Below, piece after piece: positions 22,310 through 42,533 of a DNA stretch of 55,671 bases. Positions within the stretch are counted from its first letter, which is position 1; each line of letters opens with the position of its first letter. Source of the DNA: Opitutia bacterium (GTDB taxonomy: Bacteria; Verrucomicrobiota; Verrucomicrobiia; Opitutales; Opitutaceae); assembly GCA_016187945.1 (NCBI GenBank), contig JACPIT010000014.1, positions 1 through 55,671 of the forward strand, in the 5' to 3' direction. The notes beneath the pieces are model-generated. The model was not told the origin of the DNA and ran no database searches. It saw nothing but the letters and a program-made list of their open reading frames with translations. The translations under genes were made by a program, and so were the position numbers.

Positions 22310-23344
22310 TCAGTAGTGCTTCACGTAGCCGTTGCGTCGGAGTTTCTCGAGCCAGCGTTCCTGCGCCTGACGGGCGTATTGCTGGACGAGCATGCGCTCG
22401 ATCTGGTCGCGCACTTCGTCGAGCGGCTGGATGCCGGCGACTTTGCGCTCTTCGACGTAGAGGAGGAACGCGCCCTCGGGCATCACGAGCAGGTTGCTCG
22501 TCTGGCCTTTCTCGAGGGTGAAGATGACGTCGGAAAATTCCTTGCGGAGGTCGGACTTGCGCTGCCAGCCCCAGTCGCCGCCCTTGGTGCGGCGCGGGTC
22601 TTGCGAGTAGAGGCGGGCGAGGTCGATGAAGCTCGCGCCGGCCTTGAGCTGGTCGAGGACGGGCTGGGCTTTGGCGCGCAGCGCATCGTCGGATTCGCCC
22701 TCGGCGCGGTTGAACTGGATGAGGCGCAGGTGGACCTGGTCTTCCTGGTAGAAGCGCTCTTTGTTCTCGTCGTAGAACGTCTGGATCTTCACCGGGCTGA
22801 CCTGCGTGGCCGATTTTTTCTGCTGCTGGCGCATGTAGCCGTAGATCATGTCCTCTTCGACTTCCTTGCGGTAATCCTTCTGCGAGATGCCGCGGCCGCG
22901 GAGGTAGGCGAGATACTTGGAGCGGTCGCCTTCGAACTGCGTGGCGATGATCTCGGCGATCTGGTTGTCGACGAAGCTGGCGGGGACCTTGCGCTTCTCG
23001 TCCTTGTAGAATTCCTTCACGATCAGCACGCGGTCGATCAGGTCTTGCACGATCTGGTCCTGGAGCGCGGTGATCTTTTCGTTGAACTCGCGTTCGTTGC
23101 GGCTCTCGCGCTGCACCTGCGGGAGGAGCGGGGCGATTTCGCGGCGGATGTCGTCGACGGTGATGACCTTCTCCTCGACCACGGCGGCGATGCCGTTGGC
23201 GAATTGGAGGTTCAGCTTGTCGACGACGGCTTTCTCGACGTTTTCGGGAACCGGGTTGGCCTGCGCGCGAGCGAGATTCGGGAGGGCGGCGACCGCGCTC
23301 AGGGCGATGAGGGCGGAGGCGACACGGAGGCGGCGGAACGTCAT
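22310..23344 (-). CDS. SurA-like periplasmic peptidyl-prolyl isomerase/chaperone
   Basis: A 344-residue exported folding factor for outer-membrane proteins. The signal peptide ends at about NLARAQ. A SurA N-like helical domain follows (VEEKVITVDDIRREIAPLL), then a parvulin domain (YSQDPRRTKGGDWGW near 255-270, GAFLLYVEERKVAG near 300). Only one parvulin domain is seen, where E. coli SurA has two. The start overlaps the mfd stop by ATGA, indicating coupling. In-frame codons upstream lie inside mfd and were not used. Confidence 0.88.
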   Translation of the reverse strand: MTFRRLRVASALIALSAVAALPNLARAQANPVPENVEKAVVDKLNLQFANGIAAVVEEKVITVDDIRREIAPLLPQVQRESRNEREFNEKITALQDQIVQDLIDRVLIVKEFYKDEKRKVPASFVDNQIAEIIATQFEGDRSKYLAYLRGRGISQKDYRKEVEEDMIYGYMRQQQKKSATQVSPVKIQTFYDENKERFYQEDQVHLRLIQFNRAEGESDDALRAKAQPVLDQLKAGASFIDLARLYSQDPRRTKGGDWGWQRKSDLRKEFSDVIFTLEKGQTSNLLVMPEGAFLLYVEERKVAGIQPLDEVRDQIERMLVQQYARQAQERWLEKLRRNGYVKHY

Positions 23345-26300
23345 GGGTTCGGGAGATTGGTCAGAAAGACGATGAGTTCTTTCAACCTTGCGAGGGGGGT
23401 GGGGGCGGTCAAGCGGGGAAAGCGATTGTGGAGCTGGATGAAATCGTCGCGCCGGCCACTGTGGCGCAGACACTTCAGGCGTCCGGAATCCGTTTCGACG
23501 GACAACAAGCCCTTTTGTTCCGCTCGCACACGGATTTCCGTCACGAGCAGCAGTGCGCGGACCTCGTTGCCGAACTTGCCGAAACGGTCGCGCAACTCGG
23601 CCTCGAGCGCGCGCACAGCCTCGACTTTGTCCGCCATTGCCAACCGCCGGTAGAAATCGATGCGCAGGCGTGTCTCGCCGATGTAGGCGGCGGGGAGGCG
23701 GGCCTGAATCTTGGCGAACTCGCCCGCTTCGCGCTCGGCCTGTTTGAGCGCGCTGAAACTGTCGGTCGCATCCGCGCGCTTCGTGGTGGTGCTGTCCGCG
23801 CCCTCGCCGACGAAGACGAAATCGAGCTTCACGCTCGCGCGCACGGTCGCGGCGTGTTTCTCGCCCTTCAGGCGCGCGACGCTCTGCTTGAGCAACTGGC
23901 AATACAGCTCGAAGCCGACGCCGACGATGTGGCCGCTTTGCTCCGCGCCGAGGAGATTGCCGGCGCCGCGCAGCTCGAGGTCGCGCATCGCGATGCGGAA
24001 ACCGGCGCCGAGCTGGTTGTGCTGGCGGATGGCGCTGAGGCGCTGGCGCGCGAGGTCCATCACGCGCGCGTGGCGGTGGAGGAGCAGATAGGCGTAAGCC
24101 TGGTGCTTGAACCGCCCGACGCGGCCGCGGAGCTGGTAGAGTTGCGAAAGCCCGAAGCGATCCGCGCCCTCGATGATGATCGTGTTGCAGTTCGGAATAT
24201 CGAGGCCGCTCTCGATGATCGTTGTGCAAACGAGCACATGGTAATTGCCCGCGACGAAGTCCGTCATCACGTGTTCGAGGTCGTCCTCGTCCATCTGGCC
24301 GTGGCCGATGCCGATGTTCAGCTTCGGCAACAGCTCGCGCAAGCGGGCGGCGACGAGGTCGATCGTCTGCACGCGGTTGTGCAGATAGAAAACCTGCCCG
24401 CCGCGCCGCACCTCGTGCTGGATCGCCTCGACGACGACTTTCTCGTCGTAACTCTTCACGATCGTCTGGATCGGCAGGCGGTTTGTCGGCGCGGTTTCGA
24501 TCGTGCTGAGGTCGCGCGCGCCAGTGAGCGCGAGGTAAAGCGTGCGCGGGATCGGCGTGGCGCTCATCGAGAGCATGTCGACGTGCGCGCGCCAGCGCTT
24601 GAAGACTTCCTTGTGCTTCACGCCGAAGCGCTGCTCCTCGTCGATGATCACGAGCCCGAACTCCTTGAACACGACGTCGCGCTGCACGAGCCGATGCGTG
24701 CCGATGAGGATGTCGATCTTGCCGGTCGCGACCGCGGCGAGGATTTGCGTCTGCTCCTTACGCGAGCGGAAACGCGACACCATTTCCACGGCGACCGGGT
24801 AACCGGCCATGCGCTCGCGAAACGTATTGAGGTGCTGCTGTGCGAGCACGGTCGTCGGCACGAGCACGGCGACCTGCTTGCCGCCCATCACGGCCTTGAA
24901 CGCCGCGCGGATCGCCACCTCGGTCTTGCCGAAGCCGACGTCGCCGCACACGAGCCTGTCCATCGGGCGCGTTTTCTCCATGTCGGCCTTCGTCTCGACG
25001 ATCGCCTTCGCCTGATCGGGCGTCTCGGTGTAGGGAAACGCGGCCTCGAATTCCTTCTGCCAGGTGGCGTCCTCCGCGAACGCATGGCCGGGCTGCGCCT
25101 CGCGTCGCGCCTGGATCTGCAGCAACTCCGCGGCGAGATCGAGCGTGGCGCGTTCGGCGGCGGCGCGAACTTTTTCCCACTTGCCCGAGCCGACGCGGCC
25201 GAGTTGTGGCTTCACCTTCGCGAGGCCGACGTAGCGGCTGATCAGGTGCGACTCCTGGAGCGGGACGTGGAGCGTCACTTTGTCGTCGAATTCGAGCGAG
25301 ATCACCTCGCGGATGCCGTCGGCCGTCTCGAGCTTCGTCAGCCCGCGAAAGACCGCGACGCCGTGCTGGAGGTGGACGACGAAGTCGCCTTCGACGAGGT
25401 CGGCGAAATCGAGCAACTGATCGACGGCGGATGGCGTGACGAGCGCGCGCTTGCCGACGACGCGGCGCTGGCGCTTGCGACCGAAGATTTCGGTTTCGGT
25501 GACGGCGATGTAGCCGCAGGGGCGTGCCGATCGGGGTAGGGCGTGTCGTCCCGACGAGCCGCGTTCAGTGATGTCGGCGGTTGCGGCCGTCGGCTCATCC
25601 GGAGGATTCGCCCTACCAAACGTTACGCGAAACCCTTCGTTCACCGTGCCGCGCACGAAGCGCGGTTTCAGTTTCTTCAGATCGGCATCTTCTTCGAGCA
25701 GCTCGCGCGTGCGCTGTTCCTCGCCCTCCTTCGAGACGAAGAAATCCACGGCGTAGCCCTCGCGCTTCCAGGCGAGCACGCGCTCGAGGAAGTGCCGCCG
25801 CGCGACGTCTTCGGCTTCGAGGCGTTCGTGCGCGAGCTGGTTTTCCTCCGGAAACGAACGGTGGTGGAGCAACGATTCCGTGTCCCACGTCTGCTCGTCG
25901 CTGGCGCCATCGAAGAGCGCGCTCGCGAGATCGAGATCGCCGAGGCCGAAGAGGCGCGCGACGCGTGTCGCGAGCGCATCGAGCGCGGGTGGTAGGGCGA
26001 GTCGTCCCGACGAGCCGGGCTCGGGCGTTACGACCGCATCCGACGACGGCTCGCCGGGACGACTCGCCCTACCGGCGGCGGCGCCACCGAGCAGATCGAA
26101 CGCTTCCTCCAGCGCCCTCGGTTCGACGAGCACGGCGTGCGCGGCGGCACCCAGGTAGTCGAGCAGCGAGGCCTGCGCGTGGGTGGCGTGGATTTGCGGC
26201 GCGGCGGTGAGTGTCACGTGTTCGACGCCCTCGCCGGAGCGCTGCGACACCGGATCGAGCGCGCGGATGTCTTCGAGCGTGTCGCCGAAGAAATCGAGGC

Positions 26301-26862
26301 GGTAGGGCTGGTGCGCGGTGATCGGGTAGATGTCGACGATGCCGCCGCGCACCGCGTATTGGCCGGGCGCCTCGCAGACGGCTTCGCTGTCGTAGTCGAA
26401 CTGCCTCAGCAGCTCGAGCAGACCCTGAAACGGTCGCTCTTCGCCTTTGCGCAGCGTGACTTCGCGTTCGAAGAAATCCTCCGGCGGCGGGACGGGTTGC
26501 AGGAGCGCGCCGGGCGTCGCGAGCACGAGCAACGTGTCGGGCGCGGACGTGGCGTGTTTGCGGCCGCGGAGCTTGCTCAGGACGGCGAGACGGTCGCTGG
26601 CGGCGTTGAAAGCTTCGCGCATGTCGCGGTTGTCAGCCTGCGACTCGGGGAACACGAGCACGTCGAGCGCGGTTTTGCCGTTCGCCGCGTAGTGAAACAG
26701 CGCGAGGTCTTCGGCAAACGCGTCGAGTTCCCGCGCCTCCTCGACGACCACGAGCCACGTCGGCGCGGGGGCTTCCGCTACGAGTCGCGTGAGCGCGTAG
26801 GCGCGCGCCGGCGGACAAACGCCGGTGATCTTCGTGCGCGAGGCGGTGACGGGCTCCGACAT
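23341..26862 (-). CDS. mfd: Transcription-repair coupling factor with two REPIN-derived inserts
   Basis: An 1173-residue ATPase that removes stalled RNA polymerase and recruits UvrA. In order: UvrB-like N-terminal region with YAVRGGIVDIYP near 170, RNA-polymerase interaction domain (DLVEGDFVVHLQHGVAVFRG near 485), helicase with Walker A GDVGFGKT near 640 and DEEQRFGV near 738, LRGRVGR near 900, and a C-terminal TRCF domain. The ATG at MSEPVTASR was preferred; an upstream in-frame start would add 58 Arg-rich residues. Two 83-base GTAG inverted repeats are read through in frame, encoding residues about 264-291 and 416-443. They insert Gly/Pro/Ser-rich segments in the N-terminal half while all motor motifs stay intact. 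Confidence 0.95.
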   Translation of the reverse strand: MSEPVTASRTKITGVCPPARAYALTRLVAEAPAPTWLVVVEEARELDAFAEDLALFHYAANGKTALDVLVFPESQADNRDMREAFNAASDRLAVLSKLRGRKHATSAPDTLLVLATPGALLQPVPPPEDFFEREVTLRKGEERPFQGLLELLRQFDYDSEAVCEAPGQYAVRGGIVDIYPITAHQPYRLDFFGDTLEDIRALDPVSQRSGEGVEHVTLTAAPQIHATHAQASLLDYLGAAAHAVLVEPRALEEAFDLLGGAAAGRASRPGEPSSDAVVTPEPGSSGRLALPPALDALATRVARLFGLGDLDLASALFDGASDEQTWDTESLLHHRSFPEENQLAHERLEAEDVARRHFLERVLAWKREGYAVDFFVSKEGEEQRTRELLEEDADLKKLKPRFVRGTVNEGFRVTFGRANPPDEPTAATADITERGSSGRHALPRSARPCGYIAVTETEIFGRKRQRRVVGKRALVTPSAVDQLLDFADLVEGDFVVHLQHGVAVFRGLTKLETADGIREVISLEFDDKVTLHVPLQESHLISRYVGLAKVKPQLGRVGSGKWEKVRAAAERATLDLAAELLQIQARREAQPGHAFAEDATWQKEFEAAFPYTETPDQAKAIVETKADMEKTRPMDRLVCGDVGFGKTEVAIRAAFKAVMGGKQVAVLVPTTVLAQQHLNTFRERMAGYPVAVEMVSRFRSRKEQTQILAAVATGKIDILIGTHRLVQRDVVFKEFGLVIIDEEQRFGVKHKEVFKRWRAHVDMLSMSATPIPRTLYLALTGARDLSTIETAPTNRLPIQTIVKSYDEKVVVEAIQHEVRRGGQVFYLHNRVQTIDLVAARLRELLPKLNIGIGHGQMDEDDLEHVMTDFVAGNYHVLVCTTIIESGLDIPNCNTIIIEGADRFGLSQLYQLRGRVGRFKHQAYAYLLLHRHARVMDLARQRLSAIRQHNQLGAGFRIAMRDLELRGAGNLLGAEQSGHIVGVGFELYCQLLKQSVARLKGEKHAATVRASVKLDFVFVGEGADSTTTKRADATDSFSALKQAEREAGEFAKIQARLPAAYIGETRLRIDFYRRLAMADKVEAVRALEAELRDRFGKFGNEVRALLLVTEIRVRAEQKGLLSVETDSGRLKCLRHSGRRDDFIQLHNRFPRLTAPTPLARLKELIVFLTNLPNP
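25535..25617. repeat. GTAG inverted repeat inside mfd (copy A)
   Basis: 26-base arms at 25535-25560 and 25592-25617 around a 31-base loop. Both outer ends read GGTAGGGCG on their own strand. Arms match in roughly three quarters of positions. It is translated on the minus strand as residues about 416-443 of Mfd, between the N-terminal region and the RNA-polymerase-binding domain. Confidence 0.85.
25991..26073. repeat. GTAG inverted repeat inside mfd (copy B)
   Basis: 26-base arms at 25991-26016 and 26048-26073 match in 25 of 26 positions around a 31-base loop. Size and arms equal copy A, 374 bases away. It is translated as residues about 264-291 of Mfd. The near-perfect arms suggest a recent or maintained insertion. 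Confidence 0.9.
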
Positions 26863-26976: not shown

Positions 26977-27003
26977 GGCTCGTCGGGGACGACTCGCCCT
27001 ACC
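26977..27003 (-). repeat. Solo GTAG repeat arm in the mfd-parA gap
   Basis: One arm of the same family as the two mfd copies (GACGACTCGCCCTACC end) with one extra G. No partner arm is nearby. It lies in the divergent promoter region between mfd and parA. Confidence 0.75.
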
Positions 27004-28049: not shown

Positions 28050-28131
28050 TGTCATCGCGAGCCCGACGTAGGCGGGCGCGGCGATCCAGCGAGCGCTGGA
28101 TTGCTTCGTCGCTACGCTCCTCGCAATGACA
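28050..28131. repeat. 82-base palindromic element with TGTCAT ends
   Basis: The outer ends TGTCATCGCGAG and CTCGCAATGACA are inverted, and the centre ATCCAGCG-AG-CGCTGGAT is a perfect palindrome. This dispersed element type (ending ...CTCGCAATGAC) is widespread in unrelated bacterial genomes. It lies in the gap before the CHASE kinase gene. Confidence 0.7.
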
Positions 28132-28327
28132 GATCGTGAGAGAGGTGAGACGGCGGGTGCTTTATCCAGGGGGGCGTGTGTGGGATGCGGGCTGACTGAA
28201 TCGTGCGCGTTCGACTGCGTCGAGTTCACGACGATAGACAAAACCGCGGTGCATGCGGCCATCGGGCGTTTTCCCGAGAAGTGCCGTCGCAGTTGCATGC
28301 GGACGGGCGAGCCGCTTTCGTCAGCCG

Positions 28328-31300
28328 ATGCGCCGCGTGTTCGACACGACCACCCCCGCCGGACGCCGTTTCTGGCGCTATTGGCTCGCGGGCGTGGCGA
28401 TGGCCGGGCTGGTGACGGCCGGATGGCAGCAATGGCTGCACGAGGCGACAGAACGGCGGGTCGCCGAGGAAGCGACGCGGCTCGAGGGCGAACTGGTCGG
28501 CCGACTCGAAGCCTACGTCGCCTTGCTGCGCGGTGTGGCGGGGTTGTTCGCGGCGAACGAGCGAGTCACGCGGGTGGACTTCAAAGCCTACGTCGCGCAA
28601 CTCGGAGTGGAGCGGAACTATCCGGGCACGCAGGGCATCGGTTTTTCGCAACGCGTGCCGCCGGCGGACTTGGCGAACGTGATTGCGGATCGCCGTCAGC
28701 AGGGGGCGGAGACGTTTCACGTCTGGCCCGAAGATCCGCGGCGCGAGTATCACACGATCGTCTTTCTCGAACCGGAGGACCGCCGCAATCTGGCGGCGCT
28801 GGGCTACGACATGCACACCGACGCGGTGCGCCGCGAGGCGATGGATCACGCGGGACGCTCGGGCGGAGCGGCGGTCTCGGGCGTGGTGACGCTCGTGCAG
28901 GAGATCGACGCGCAGAAACAACCGGGATTTCTCATCTATTATCCGGTGTATCGGCAACGCGGTGGCGGCGTGCCGGCGTCGGTCGAGGAGCGGGAGCGGA
29001 CGTTGGCCGGTTTTGTCTACGCGCCGTTCCGGGCCGCGGATTTTCTGCGCAATCGGGTGGCGCGGACGGAGCGGCAGGGAATCTGTCTCACGATCTGGGA
29101 GGGCGATCGTCCCGACGCCCGCACGCGGCTGTTCGTCACGTCCGGCGGCGCGAGCGCGCCGGGCGGCGGCTGGTCGCGGGTGGGGGTGACGCGCTCGTTG
29201 CCGATGTTGAATCGCGTGTGGACGTTCCGCTATGAAACGGCGGTGACGGGCTGGCTGCCGTGGTGGGCGGTGTGGTTGATCGGCATCGCGGGCGCGTCGG
29301 TGCTGGCCGTGCTGGTGGATCGCGAACGCCGCGCGCTCGAACTCGCGGAGGAGAGCGCGGCGGCGCGCCGGGATCGCGAGCAGCAACTCGCGTTGCTCAT
29401 GGATGTGATGCCGCTGCTCGTGGTTTTCGTGGACCGCGCCGGCGTGTTCCGCCTCGTGAACGCGCGGCTGCAGGAGTGGTTCGGCGTCGAGCCGCGGATG
29501 CTGATCGGCCGGCCGCTGCGGGAAGTGGCGCGGGGGGAAACCTACGCGGAGCTGGAGCCGATCGTGCGCCGTGCGCTCGCGGGGGAGAAAGTGGCGTTCG
29601 AGCGCTGGTTCGGTCCGAGCGCCGGCGAGGCGGCATCGCCTTTGCCGGCCCGCTATCTCTCGGTGCATCTCGTGCCGTATCGGGACGGAACCGGCCAAGT
29701 GGTGGGGTTCTACGCGGTGGCGTCGGATTTGACGGCGCACATCCACGCCGAGCAGGGCGCGCGTTTCGTCGCCGATTGCAGCAACCTGCTGATCGCGGCG
29801 GCGAGCGAGGGGGCGATCATGCAGGGCCTCGTGCGGCTCGCGGTGCCGCGCGTGGCGGACGGAGCGGTGATTTTCAAGGTGACGCCGGAGAAGCTGCGCG
29901 TGGCGGCGATCGCGCATCGCGAAGCCGAGGCGGAGGTGCTGTTGCGGCGGCGCTTCGGCGGCTTCGAGCTGGGGATCGAGGGCGCGTCGCTGCTGGCGCG
30001 CGCGGCGCGCACGGGGCGTGCGGTGGCGCTGGCGGAGATTCAGAGCGGCGACTTGCGCCGGTTGTTTCCCGATCCCGACGCGAGCGACATGGAGCGGCTC
30101 GGCATCCGCTCGGTGTTGCACGTCCCGGTGGTGGTGCGCGATCGCGTGTGGGCCGTGCTGACGCTCGCGATGGCCGGCAGCGGCCGGCGCTATTCGACCG
30201 ACGACCTGCCGCTCGCCGAGGAAATCTCGACGCGCATCCGGCTGTCGGTGGAAAACGCGCTGCTGTTCCGCGAGGCGCGGCAGGAAATCGAGGAGCGCCG
30301 CCGCGCGGAGCGGACCGCGCGCGAGTCCGAGGAGCGCTTCCGCCTGCTCGTGGAGGGCGCGCGCGACTACGCGATGATCCTGCTCGACGCGGACGGGAAG
30401 ATCGCGAGTTGGAATCCCGGCGCGGGGCGGCTGCTGGGTTTTTCCGAGCAGGAAGCGCTGGGGCTGCCGTTCGCGATGCTCTTCAGCGCCGACGATCGGG
30501 CGGCCGGGCTGCCCGGACAGGAACTCGAGACGGCGCGCAAGGCCGGCTCGGCGCCCGACGAGCGCTGGCACTTGCGCAAGGACGGCTCGCGCTTCTGGGC
30601 GAGCGGGCACACCGTCGCGCTGCGCGACGAGCAGGGCGGCGTCCGCGGGTTCGCGAAGGTCATGCGCGACCTCACGGGCTGGAAATTGAGCGAGGAGGAA
30701 CTCGAGCGCCGCGTGCACCAGCGCACGCTCGAGCTCAACGAGGCGGTGCAGGAGCTGGAGGCGTTTTCCTATTCGGTGTCGCACGATCTGCGCTCGCCGC
30801 TGCGCAGCATTCAGAGTTTCACGAGCTTCACGATCGAGGAAGCGAGCGACCGGCTGAACCCGACCGAACGCGGCTATCTCGAGCGCGTGCAGCGTTCGGC
30901 GGCGCGGCTCGACCGGCTCATCTCCGATCTGCTCGCCTACACCCGCGTGTCGAAGACGCGCGTGCCGCTGGAGCCGGTGAGCCTCGATGCGCTGGTGGGG
31001 CAAATCCAGCGCGAGCACCCGGAGTTCAATCCGCCGCACGCGACGGTGGAAATCCGCGGCCCGCTCGGGCGCATCGTCGGCAACGAGGCTTACGTGACGC
31101 AGTGCGTGACGAACCTGCTGGGCAACGCGGTGAAGTTCGTCGCTCCCGGGCGCGTGCCGGCGGTGAAAATTTGGGGCGAGCGGATCGGCGCGAACGTGCG
31201 GCTGCATTTTCAGGACAACGGCATCGGCGTGCCGCCGGAGCACGCCGCGCGGATTTTCCAGATTTTCGAGCGGCTGCATCCGGGCGGGAGCTACGAGGGC

Positions 31301-31432
31301 ACGGGCGTCGGCCTCGCGATCGTGCGGCGCGCGGCGCAACGGATGAACGGCAGCGTCGGCGTGCGGCCGACTCCCGAGGGCGAGGGCTCGGTTTTCTGGC
31401 TCGAACTGCCGGCGGCGAACGACGCGGTGTGA
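28328..31432 (+). CDS. Membrane sensor histidine kinase: CHASE-PAS-GAF-PAS-HisKA-HATPase
   Basis: A 1034-residue inner-membrane sensor kinase. A first membrane span (about 15-32) and second (about 300-322) enclose a CHASE-type extracellular sensor (AFHV-like TFHVWPEDPRREYHTIV, VTLVQEIDAQKQPGFLIYYP). Then come a PAS domain (about 350-480), a GAF-like domain (about 490-640), a second PAS (RFRLLVEGARDYAMIL) and the kinase core with phospho-accepting His in YSVSHDLRSPLRS near 818, NLLGNAVKF near 930 and GTGVGLAIV near the end. No receiver domain is present and no response regulator gene is adjacent. A longer start 75 bases upstream is possible; the chosen one precedes the first span directly. Confidence 0.9.
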   Translation: MRRVFDTTTPAGRRFWRYWLAGVAMAGLVTAGWQQWLHEATERRVAEEATRLEGELVGRLEAYVALLRGVAGLFAANERVTRVDFKAYVAQLGVERNYPGTQGIGFSQRVPPADLANVIADRRQQGAETFHVWPEDPRREYHTIVFLEPEDRRNLAALGYDMHTDAVRREAMDHAGRSGGAAVSGVVTLVQEIDAQKQPGFLIYYPVYRQRGGGVPASVEERERTLAGFVYAPFRAADFLRNRVARTERQGICLTIWEGDRPDARTRLFVTSGGASAPGGGWSRVGVTRSLPMLNRVWTFRYETAVTGWLPWWAVWLIGIAGASVLAVLVDRERRALELAEESAAARRDREQQLALLMDVMPLLVVFVDRAGVFRLVNARLQEWFGVEPRMLIGRPLREVARGETYAELEPIVRRALAGEKVAFERWFGPSAGEAASPLPARYLSVHLVPYRDGTGQVVGFYAVASDLTAHIHAEQGARFVADCSNLLIAAASEGAIMQGLVRLAVPRVADGAVIFKVTPEKLRVAAIAHREAEAEVLLRRRFGGFELGIEGASLLARAARTGRAVALAEIQSGDLRRLFPDPDASDMERLGIRSVLHVPVVVRDRVWAVLTLAMAGSGRRYSTDDLPLAEEISTRIRLSVENALLFREARQEIEERRRAERTARESEERFRLLVEGARDYAMILLDADGKIASWNPGAGRLLGFSEQEALGLPFAMLFSADDRAAGLPGQELETARKAGSAPDERWHLRKDGSRFWASGHTVALRDEQGGVRGFAKVMRDLTGWKLSEEELERRVHQRTLELNEAVQELEAFSYSVSHDLRSPLRSIQSFTSFTIEEASDRLNPTERGYLERVQRSAARLDRLISDLLAYTRVSKTRVPLEPVSLDALVGQIQREHPEFNPPHATVEIRGPLGRIVGNEAYVTQCVTNLLGNAVKFVAPGRVPAVKIWGERIGANVRLHFQDNGIGVPPEHAARIFQIFERLHPGGSYEGTGVGLAIVRRAAQRMNGSVGVRPTPEGEGSVFWLELPAANDAV

Positions 31433-31509
31433 GCGCGGATGCGTGCGGCGAGTGGCTGCGTCGGCCGGAAGCCGGCGCTGAGCCACGCCCCGCGCGGCGG
31501 AGCGGCGGA

Positions 31510-31656
31510 TCAGGTTTGGAGCAGCCCGATCACGAGCCCGGCGAGGCCGATGGCGAGAGCGAGGGCGAACACGACGGCGGTGGCGGCGGTCTTGAGGCGC
31601 TCAAGATTTTCGGCGGCGACCCACGGGTTTTCGTCCATGACGAGTTTGATCCTCAT
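31510..31656 (-). CDS. Small single-span membrane protein, family member 1
   Basis: A 48-residue protein of unknown function. The N-terminal soluble part (MDENPWVAAENLERLKTAAT) is followed by one hydrophobic span (VVFALALAIGLAGLVIGLL). The ATG is preceded by GAGG seven bases upstream. It aligns with the two small proteins on the other side of glgP (34606-34758 and 34881-35030), sharing N.W(I/L/V)..(S/A)(D/E)..ERLK..AT followed by a span. Codon use is high-GC at third positions. Existence as a gene rests on this similarity. Confidence 0.6.
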   Translation of the reverse strand: MRIKLVMDENPWVAAENLERLKTAATAVVFALALAIGLAGLVIGLLQT

Positions 31657-31755
31657 GACAGCCTCTACATCGGCACGGCGGGGCCGGGCTTGAGGAAAGC
31701 CGGGGCGGTTTAGCCCGGATGTTTCGCCCGCCGAGCGAAGCACGCGACGCAGCGT

Positions 31756-31818
31756 GGTAGCGGAACTCGTGAGAATTTCGCCGCTGTTGAGGTGCGAAAA
31801 CCTCACGGTTTCCGCTCC
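31756..31818. repeat. GTAG inverted repeat downstream of glgP
   Basis: Arms at 31756-31781 (starting GGTAGCGGAA) and 31794-31818 are inverted and match in about 20 of 26 positions, with a 12-base loop. The right arm's outer end reads GGAGC on its own strand instead of GGTAG. The surrounding 31657-32004 stretch shows no coding frame. Confidence 0.65.
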
Positions 31819-31981
31819 GCCGTGAAATATCCTGGTTAAAGAAAGCGACGCCGCGTGCGGTGGGGCAAGGCCGCTGGGCCCGTCGAAACGTGCTCGCGGC
31901 GCGCCCAGCGGTCGCGCCCCGCGCGATCGCGCCGGCCTCGGCGGCGGCCCACTCGCGCGCATCACCCCGGAACGGAGGTTC

Positions 31982-32004
31982 GGTAGGGCCGGCTGAAGCC
32001 GGCC

Positions 32005-32008
<4 letters not shown>
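31982..32008. repeat. Compact GTAG palindrome overlapping the glgP stop
   Basis: A near-perfect palindrome GGTAGGGCCGGCT-GA-AGCCGGCCCTAC with two GTAG heads back to back. The head on the minus strand supplies the TAG stop codon of glgP. It may also act as a 3' hairpin of the glgP transcript. Confidence 0.85.
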
Positions 32009-34470
<2,462 letters not shown>

Positions 34471-42375: not shown

Positions 42376-42441
42376 GAGGTAGGGCGCGAACGCTGGGCGC
42401 GCCGTAAGGACGTTCGCGGCCGGCCCGGCGGTCCGGCCCTA
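42376..42441. repeat. GTAG inverted repeat between pdhA and the Nudix gene
   Basis: 26-base arms at 42376-42401 and 42416-42441, both with GGTAGGGC outer ends, around a 14-base loop. Inner arm positions have diverged. It lies in a 320-base gap upstream of pdhA; otherwise a small CCAAG...CTTGG hairpin near 42249 is the only structure. Confidence 0.7.
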
Positions 42442-42533
42442 CCGGCGCTGCCGCGCCGAACGCTACGAGGGCGCCGCCGTGTGGGCTCGGTGCGTGCAGG
42501 CCCGGCGCCATTCTAGATTACCGACCCGGCGCC

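Follow-up and report, generated by a model that had tools for sequence, protein, structure and literature searches.

GTAG REPINs carried in frame by two probable loops of an Opitutaceae Mfd, sites that relatives leave empty or fill with other repeats

Intragenic GTAG REPs are already known for the bacterial group studied here, and the novelty of our observations is limited to that extent. In the parts of their report drawn on here, Di Nocera et al. (2013; PMC3733652) described such REPs as most numerous in Opitutus terrae, with many of the REP-bearing ORFs being replication and repair genes, sometimes with two insertions per gene, and with intragenic REP dimers or groups encoding 20 to 30 amino acids. 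Both O. terrae uvrA genes carry double insertions, and the recB genes of X. campestris and X. oryzae were hit at approximately the same site by different REPs. The same authors speculated that REP inserts alter repair proteins and also proposed flexible linkers or loops as neutral sites. The main text of PMC3733652, taken apart from its supplementary Additional file 3, contains no occurrence of mfd.

Two other systems bear a resemblance, as far as the portions of the reports used here describe them. The REPINs of P. fluorescens SBW25 (Bertels and Rainey 2011; PMC3116915) are likewise pairs of REPs in inverted orientation with an association to RAYT genes, but they are primarily extragenic: for the commonest 16-mers, only 14 of 1,067 occurrences overlap genes. 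The Rickettsia RPEs (PMC3767692, PMC10969869) are palindromic and lie in frame at solvent-exposed positions of conserved genes; we compare them as an analogue only. They belong to another lineage and element type and measure ∼100 to 150 bp. In R. japonica, different RPE groups occur near one another in the same genes, and the choice between hotspots and diverged copies was left undecided (PMC3767692). RPE-4 and RPE-6 have been counted as CGTC repeats, a class given in Table 1 of PMC3733652 as having no association with transposase genes.

The locus described here lies in a window of 55,671 nucleotides (the whole stretch of DNA analyzed) from a 5.47-Mb Opitutaceae genome, G000. Its mfd gene (transcription-repair coupling factor) has no internal stops when the minus strand of the window is translated, and the protein scored 930 bits against NCBIfam TIGR00580 (cut-off, 800) in a family search, with Pfam matches above cut-offs to UvrB_inter, RID, DEAD, Helicase_C, and TRCF. 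An initial annotation had proposed that two inverted repeats lie within this otherwise intact gene. We found both, each encoding the very residues assigned to it (Table 1). A repeat search placed the two elements 373 nt apart, with arms of ∼27 nt or more and 73% mutual identity.

Table 1. Repeat elements and host gene in the window (positions are those of the whole stretch)
Feature	Coordinates	Strand	Description
mfd (transcription-repair coupling factor)	23341..26862	minus	1173 aa, open across both elements
Site-1 REPIN	25991..26073	minus	83 nt, residues 264-291 (GRASRPGEP...GSSGRLALP)
Site-2 REPIN	25535..25617	minus	83 nt, residues 416-443 (GRANPPDEP...GSSGRHALP)
Single REP, family of the mfd elements	26977..27003	minus	Upstream of the mfd start codon; end motif at 26995-27003
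Third REPIN in the window	42378..42443		66 nt, arms of another family; lies in no called gene and is not part of mfd

For the purposes of this analysis, we labeled the arm families F1 (TCGTCCCGACGA), F2 (CCTCCGGA), and F3 (TTCTCCGAA). Each arm of the site-1 element is F1, and the site-2 element, on the mfd sense strand, has an F2 arm followed by an F1 arm. With arms from two subfamilies, the latter is the less symmetric (81% complementary over 27 nt), and its RNA fold has an energy of -44.8 kcal/mol (z, -5.62 versus shuffles) compared to -72.3 kcal/mol (z, -9.76) for the site-1 element. The arm of the mfd elements had 95 matches at up to three mismatches in G000 and the reversed control pattern had none, which together with the fold z-scores excludes a chance origin. 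The stricter F1 pattern (two ambiguous positions, no mismatch) had 53 matches. Complete units of the form GGTAGGGC N42-72 GCCCTACC numbered 77 in G000, again with none for the reversed control, and such units were present in 23 of the 57 genomes searched, G000 included. The single REP upstream of mfd sits between this gene and what we take to be a ParA-like gene. Elsewhere in the window, at 28050-28140, is a repeat-like stretch, GCGATCCAGCGAGCGCTGGATTGCTTCGTCGCTACGCTCCTCGCAATGACA, which presumably resembles a widespread intergenic repeat.

G000 has eight matches to Y1_Tnp (PF01797). One of these genes, at C11:5711 (27 bits; cut-off, 23), encodes an HLH motif and has F1 REPs on either side, a layout expected of a cognate RAYT; the link to the repeat family is made for this RAYT-like gene alone, the other seven Y1_Tnp genes having no family tie. 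On the basis of the arm copy number, the full units, and the Y1_Tnp gene flanked by F1 REPs, the two mfd segments are GTAG REPINs, i.e., inverted REP pairs. They have the terminal GTAG, the palindromic stem-loop, the high copy number, and the dispersal of GTAG REPs, with two inverted REPs around a spacer, and the genome contains a RAYT gene that has the same REP on its flanks. For target-site duplication, a trait of classical DDE-type MITEs, the sequences bordering filled and empty sites have diverged too far for a target to be defined. An intein was set aside, 28 residues being too short and below intein size. On contig C11 (L044:600-2600), the RAYT gene is flanked by a duplicated REP-spacer-REP unit, and the adjoining gene, which we assume to resemble a murein-peptide (Mpl-type) ligase gene, contains an in-frame REPIN of its own.

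Is the arrangement in mfd peculiar to this genome? We compared Mfd at the codon level between G000 and 14 relatives (13 at site 2, where G003 has no sequence). The close relative G007 has an Mfd without either insert; site 1 is empty in G001 and G002; and no palindromes were found by inverted-repeat scores at site 1 or 2 in G004, G008, G009, G010, and G011. Others among the relatives carry different repeats. Where the palindrome is missing, the corresponding residues are missing too, and the alignment gaps fit both segments, in support of the proposal that the REPINs were inserted in frame. An assembly error was rejected, as G002, a separate assembly of another species, has an 83-nt REPIN at site 2.

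We then scanned 126 nonredundant Mfd ORFs from the family and order for inverted repeats. At the main threshold (a score of 15), 24 inverted repeats were detected in 19 of the 126 ORFs; 4 upstream of residue 1 were set aside, and the 20 coding repeats began at three places only, at reference residues 102 to 107 (n = 3), 258 to 264 (site 1, n = 9), and 415 to 425 (site 2, n = 8). The codon-shuffled control gave 4 repeats in 126 ORFs. The site-2 element of G000 itself scores 14.5, slightly below this threshold. Scans at lower thresholds, which differ from the main scan in seed and windows, yielded 27 coding matches at 14 (2 of them off the three sites, in bins 480 and 540; shuffled, 1), 35 at 13 (more of them off-site than at 14; shuffled, 13), and 71 at 12 (likewise more off-site, with 6 each in bins 480 and 540; shuffled, 24). 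The counts still peak at the main sites, with matches elsewhere and a background. At least six arm families occupy the Mfd sites, with arm types TCGTCCCGACGA, CCTCCGGA, TTCTCCGAA, CCCTCCGGG, GGACCGC, GGCACTCC, CGGACTCC, TGTAGGGCGGGGTC, and GTGGGAGCGAGC. Near reference residue 102, the Mfd of L188 has a third variable loop with a long in-frame repeat stretch of the GGAGCT/AGAGCT type and no GTAG REPIN.

The distribution of the inserts was set against a tree of 36 Mfd sequences calculated without the insert columns. These rows were hand-picked from the 126 and include 12 of the 14 ORFs with a site-1 or site-2 match, so the tree provides change counts and not frequencies; it is partly resolved (18 of 33 inner branches starred), and the G002 row fills 44% of columns. 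Presence at site 1 (9 of 36) requires at least 7 changes; for presence at site 2, the minimum is 7 changes at threshold 13 (9 of 36) and 6 at threshold 15 (7 of 36). These counts bear on the suggestion, made in the initial annotation, that the repeats had been domesticated as protein segments. According to such an explanation, which follows a speculation in the part of PMC3733652 consulted, the peptides would have been recruited to tune Mfd, for example in its contacts with RNA polymerase or UvrA. Repair genes (mfd and a UvrA-type gene) are indeed among the REPIN hosts, and the site-2 insert is common to G000 and G002 with well-kept arms. However, the repeated changes on the tree, the variation of repeat families between relatives, the absence of both inserts from G007, and a host range that extends to GH43, an RND pump, MenD, RlmN, and others make recruitment very unlikely, and the segments, being gained, lost, and filled by differing repeat families in relatives, lend domestication no support.

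What kind of position accepts these inserts? An AlphaFold2 model of Mfd was obtained from 44 Mfds (mean pLDDT, 72; weak pTM, 0.53). Both inserts were modeled as coil (core block means, ∼33 to 46), with site 1 between confident helices at 248-263 and 292-300 and site 2 between confident strands at 411-414 and 450-454. Low pLDDT also occurs in motor regions (e.g., 902-1001) and is thus not specific to the inserts. The best PDB matches by E value were E. coli and mycobacterial Mfd, at a TM score of ∼0.4 that leaves domain placement unreliable. The model supports the view that the insert sites are probably flexible loops.

REPINs of this genome were then placed relative to genes in two surveys, using gene calls from a self-trained codon model that by construction detects open insertions only. 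The first covered the initial 1.2 Mb of the 1.5-Mb contig C9, picked regardless of repeats; 9 of 41 units were located within called genes, 60 nt or more from the gene ends, compared to 3,500 of 5,000 random 72-mers. With 32 of 41 units outside called genes, REPINs are mostly extragenic, and the mfd pair are exceptions. The second survey, of the window and 67 stretches selected for containing the main arm, found 14 of 49 units to be intragenic versus 3,557 of 5,000 random 75-mers. The surveys overlap in six units and give 17 distinct intragenic units in 13 genes.

The 32 extragenic units of C9 comprise 24 between same-strand genes, 7 between convergent genes, and 1 between divergent genes. Many of these units are thus probably transcribed, which, together with the very stable RNA folds, could be taken to mean that the elements work through their DNA or RNA structure, as hairpins of the mfd transcript or as binding sites for gyrase or a RAYT, and that their translation is incidental. 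Because the strong mfd elements occur at three positions only and in frame, and because relatives manage without them, we regard this as highly improbable. For two of the 32 units, the flanking genes share a strand and abut closely (-70 to +15 nt on each side); by reading of the proteins, they look like different genes and not like one that was split.

All 17 intragenic units are open, as gene calling demands. Two of the three entry phases at the left end of a REPIN lack a stop, making these elements translatable: one reads GGT AGG GCG (GRA), one reads xxG GTA GGG (VG), and the third reads TAG. Fourteen intragenic units entered in the GRA phase, three in the other open phase, and none in the TAG phase. 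Family searches named 11 of the 13 host genes, the other two being C9:669260 and C9:814355. Besides mfd, the ten further hosts are genes for a UvrA-type protein, HrpA, CusA/CzcA, RlmN, MenD, a SpoU methylase, an FMN dehydrogenase, GH43, DUF255, and DUF58.

We consider it very likely that REPIN insertion was tolerated in permissive loops of Mfd and that the inserts persist in frame as flexible hydrophilic peptide without having been domesticated. GTAG REPINs would have been moved by a RAYT/TnpA-REP single-strand transposase, for which the C11 RAYT is a candidate on sequence grounds, and would have landed in the two loops. The inserts may then have persisted where they remained in frame and encoded a flexible, hydrophilic peptide, presumably with a near-neutral effect on Mfd, and the same sites would be filled repeatedly since few positions are likely to tolerate inserts. 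An insert of 83 nt would keep the frame only with one additional nucleotide (modulo 3) of target change, and the flanks of the mfd inserts are too diverged to pinpoint the compensating nucleotide.

The initial annotation had also held that such repeats in a repair motor would be unusual. This is only partly so: intragenic GTAG REPs are in print for O. terrae, including repair genes such as uvrA (PMC3733652), and the Rickettsia RPEs are alike (PMC10969869), as judged from the portions of these sources considered. The O. terrae REPs are, like those described here, GTAG-tagged palindromes or dimers inside ORFs; unlike in the portion of that report considered, we followed corresponding loops in Mfd, HrpA, and RlmN over many species with differing REP families. 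A search over titles and abstract openings, covering few subscription papers, showed among the entries listed no recognizable report of the same Mfd loops being refilled by different REP families. The novelty lies in comparing loops of one protein that are empty in some species, filled in others, and filled differently in still others, which turns a catalogue of REPs in repair genes into a series for the same loops. This series allows a direct test of the question raised for the Rickettsia RPEs (hotspot versus one old insert that diverged) and favors loop tolerance over repair tuning as the reason that genes retain inserts.

The same pattern was observed in HrpA and RlmN, whose loops, as in Mfd, are filled differently between species. 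The search covered 14 genomes; HrpA was aligned from 13 (G011 was excluded for stops in its copy) and RlmN from 11, with no close match in G003, G011, and G012. At approximately residue 840 of HrpA, G000, G001, and G002 have NPPDEP-type inserts, G003 and G012 have SSPHEP- and SSPNEP-type inserts, and G004 and G009 are empty. The arms follow the lineage: G012 has F3 arms at both Mfd sites and a genome with 21 F3 matches, three of them contributed by those mfd arms, and 2 F1 matches, compared to 1 and 53, respectively, in G000. In G011, the HrpA-like match on contig C2 (∼31268-34013) has several stop codons in its pieces, and this copy looks broken.

Were the inserts inherited, inserted anew, or rewritten in place? 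To set loop identities against chance, we used a null of 44 comparisons from a pool of 12 REPINs (11 with loops of at least 12 nt). Between G000 and G002, the site-2 elements share 77 of 83 bases and their loops 26 of 31 (null as high, 0/44); identities in HrpA were 18/24 for G001 and G002 and 21/24 for G003 and G012 (0/44 each). Some inserts, namely, Mfd site 2 in G000 and G002 and HrpA in G001 and G002 and in G003 and G012, are thus inherited. Counted by eye, the G000 and G002 site-2 arms differ at 1 of 52 bases, against 77% identity over the Mfd coding sequence that the two have in common; the well-kept arms could hint at constraint or recent homogenization rather than neutrality. In HrpA, however, G000 and G001 have elements with the same arms but loops of unequal length, and the match between them was not above the null (29/44 as high).

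A tentative alternative, which we think possible but doubtful, is that old insertions were changed in place, their arms having been overwritten by the dominant REP family of each lineage (concerted evolution) and not replaced by repeated insertion. It overlaps with the explanation that we prefer, the difference being the way in which the sites came to be refilled. The five mfd elements of G000, G002, and G012 are each 83 nt despite different arms, a hint that points to arm replacement in place, and the F3 and F1 matches in G012 and G000 fit the same idea. The HrpA loops of F2/F1-armed G001 and F3-armed G012 or G003 match at 15/24 (1/44 as high), which is suggestive of in-place replacement for these pairs at one HrpA site and for no other pairs. 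However, differently armed Mfd loops were indistinguishable from chance at site 1 (9/31; 34/44 as high) and within chance at site 2 (16/31 and 17/31; 8/44 and 6/44), the HrpA loops of G002 matched those of G012 and G003 at 11/24 (8/44 and 9/44), and those of G000 and G012 differ in length (27 versus 24 nt; 9/44). In addition, wholly different repeat types (GTGGGAG and TGTAGG) occupy the same sites, which suggests new insertion. A broader proposition, that fixed permissive loops in Opitutaceae are long-term residences in which the lineage-dominant REP family overwrites the REPIN arms in place, seems to us rather unlikely; if true, conserved repair and RNA enzymes would have coding sequence under concerted evolution driven by selfish elements.

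Two of the host genes contain further repeats. HrpA (L111:913-5259, 1449 aa) has three GGTAGGGC-type REPINs in one helicase and two more repeat-like segments near residues 200 and 437, positions that are variably filled in relatives. The UvrA-type gene on contig C6 (L082:1786-7926, 2047 aa) has one REPIN and a lone segment that by eye resembles a REP. In several of its linkers, peptides such as QLSTLNSQL and SKIEN recur, apparently as in-frame copies of additional short DNA repeats.
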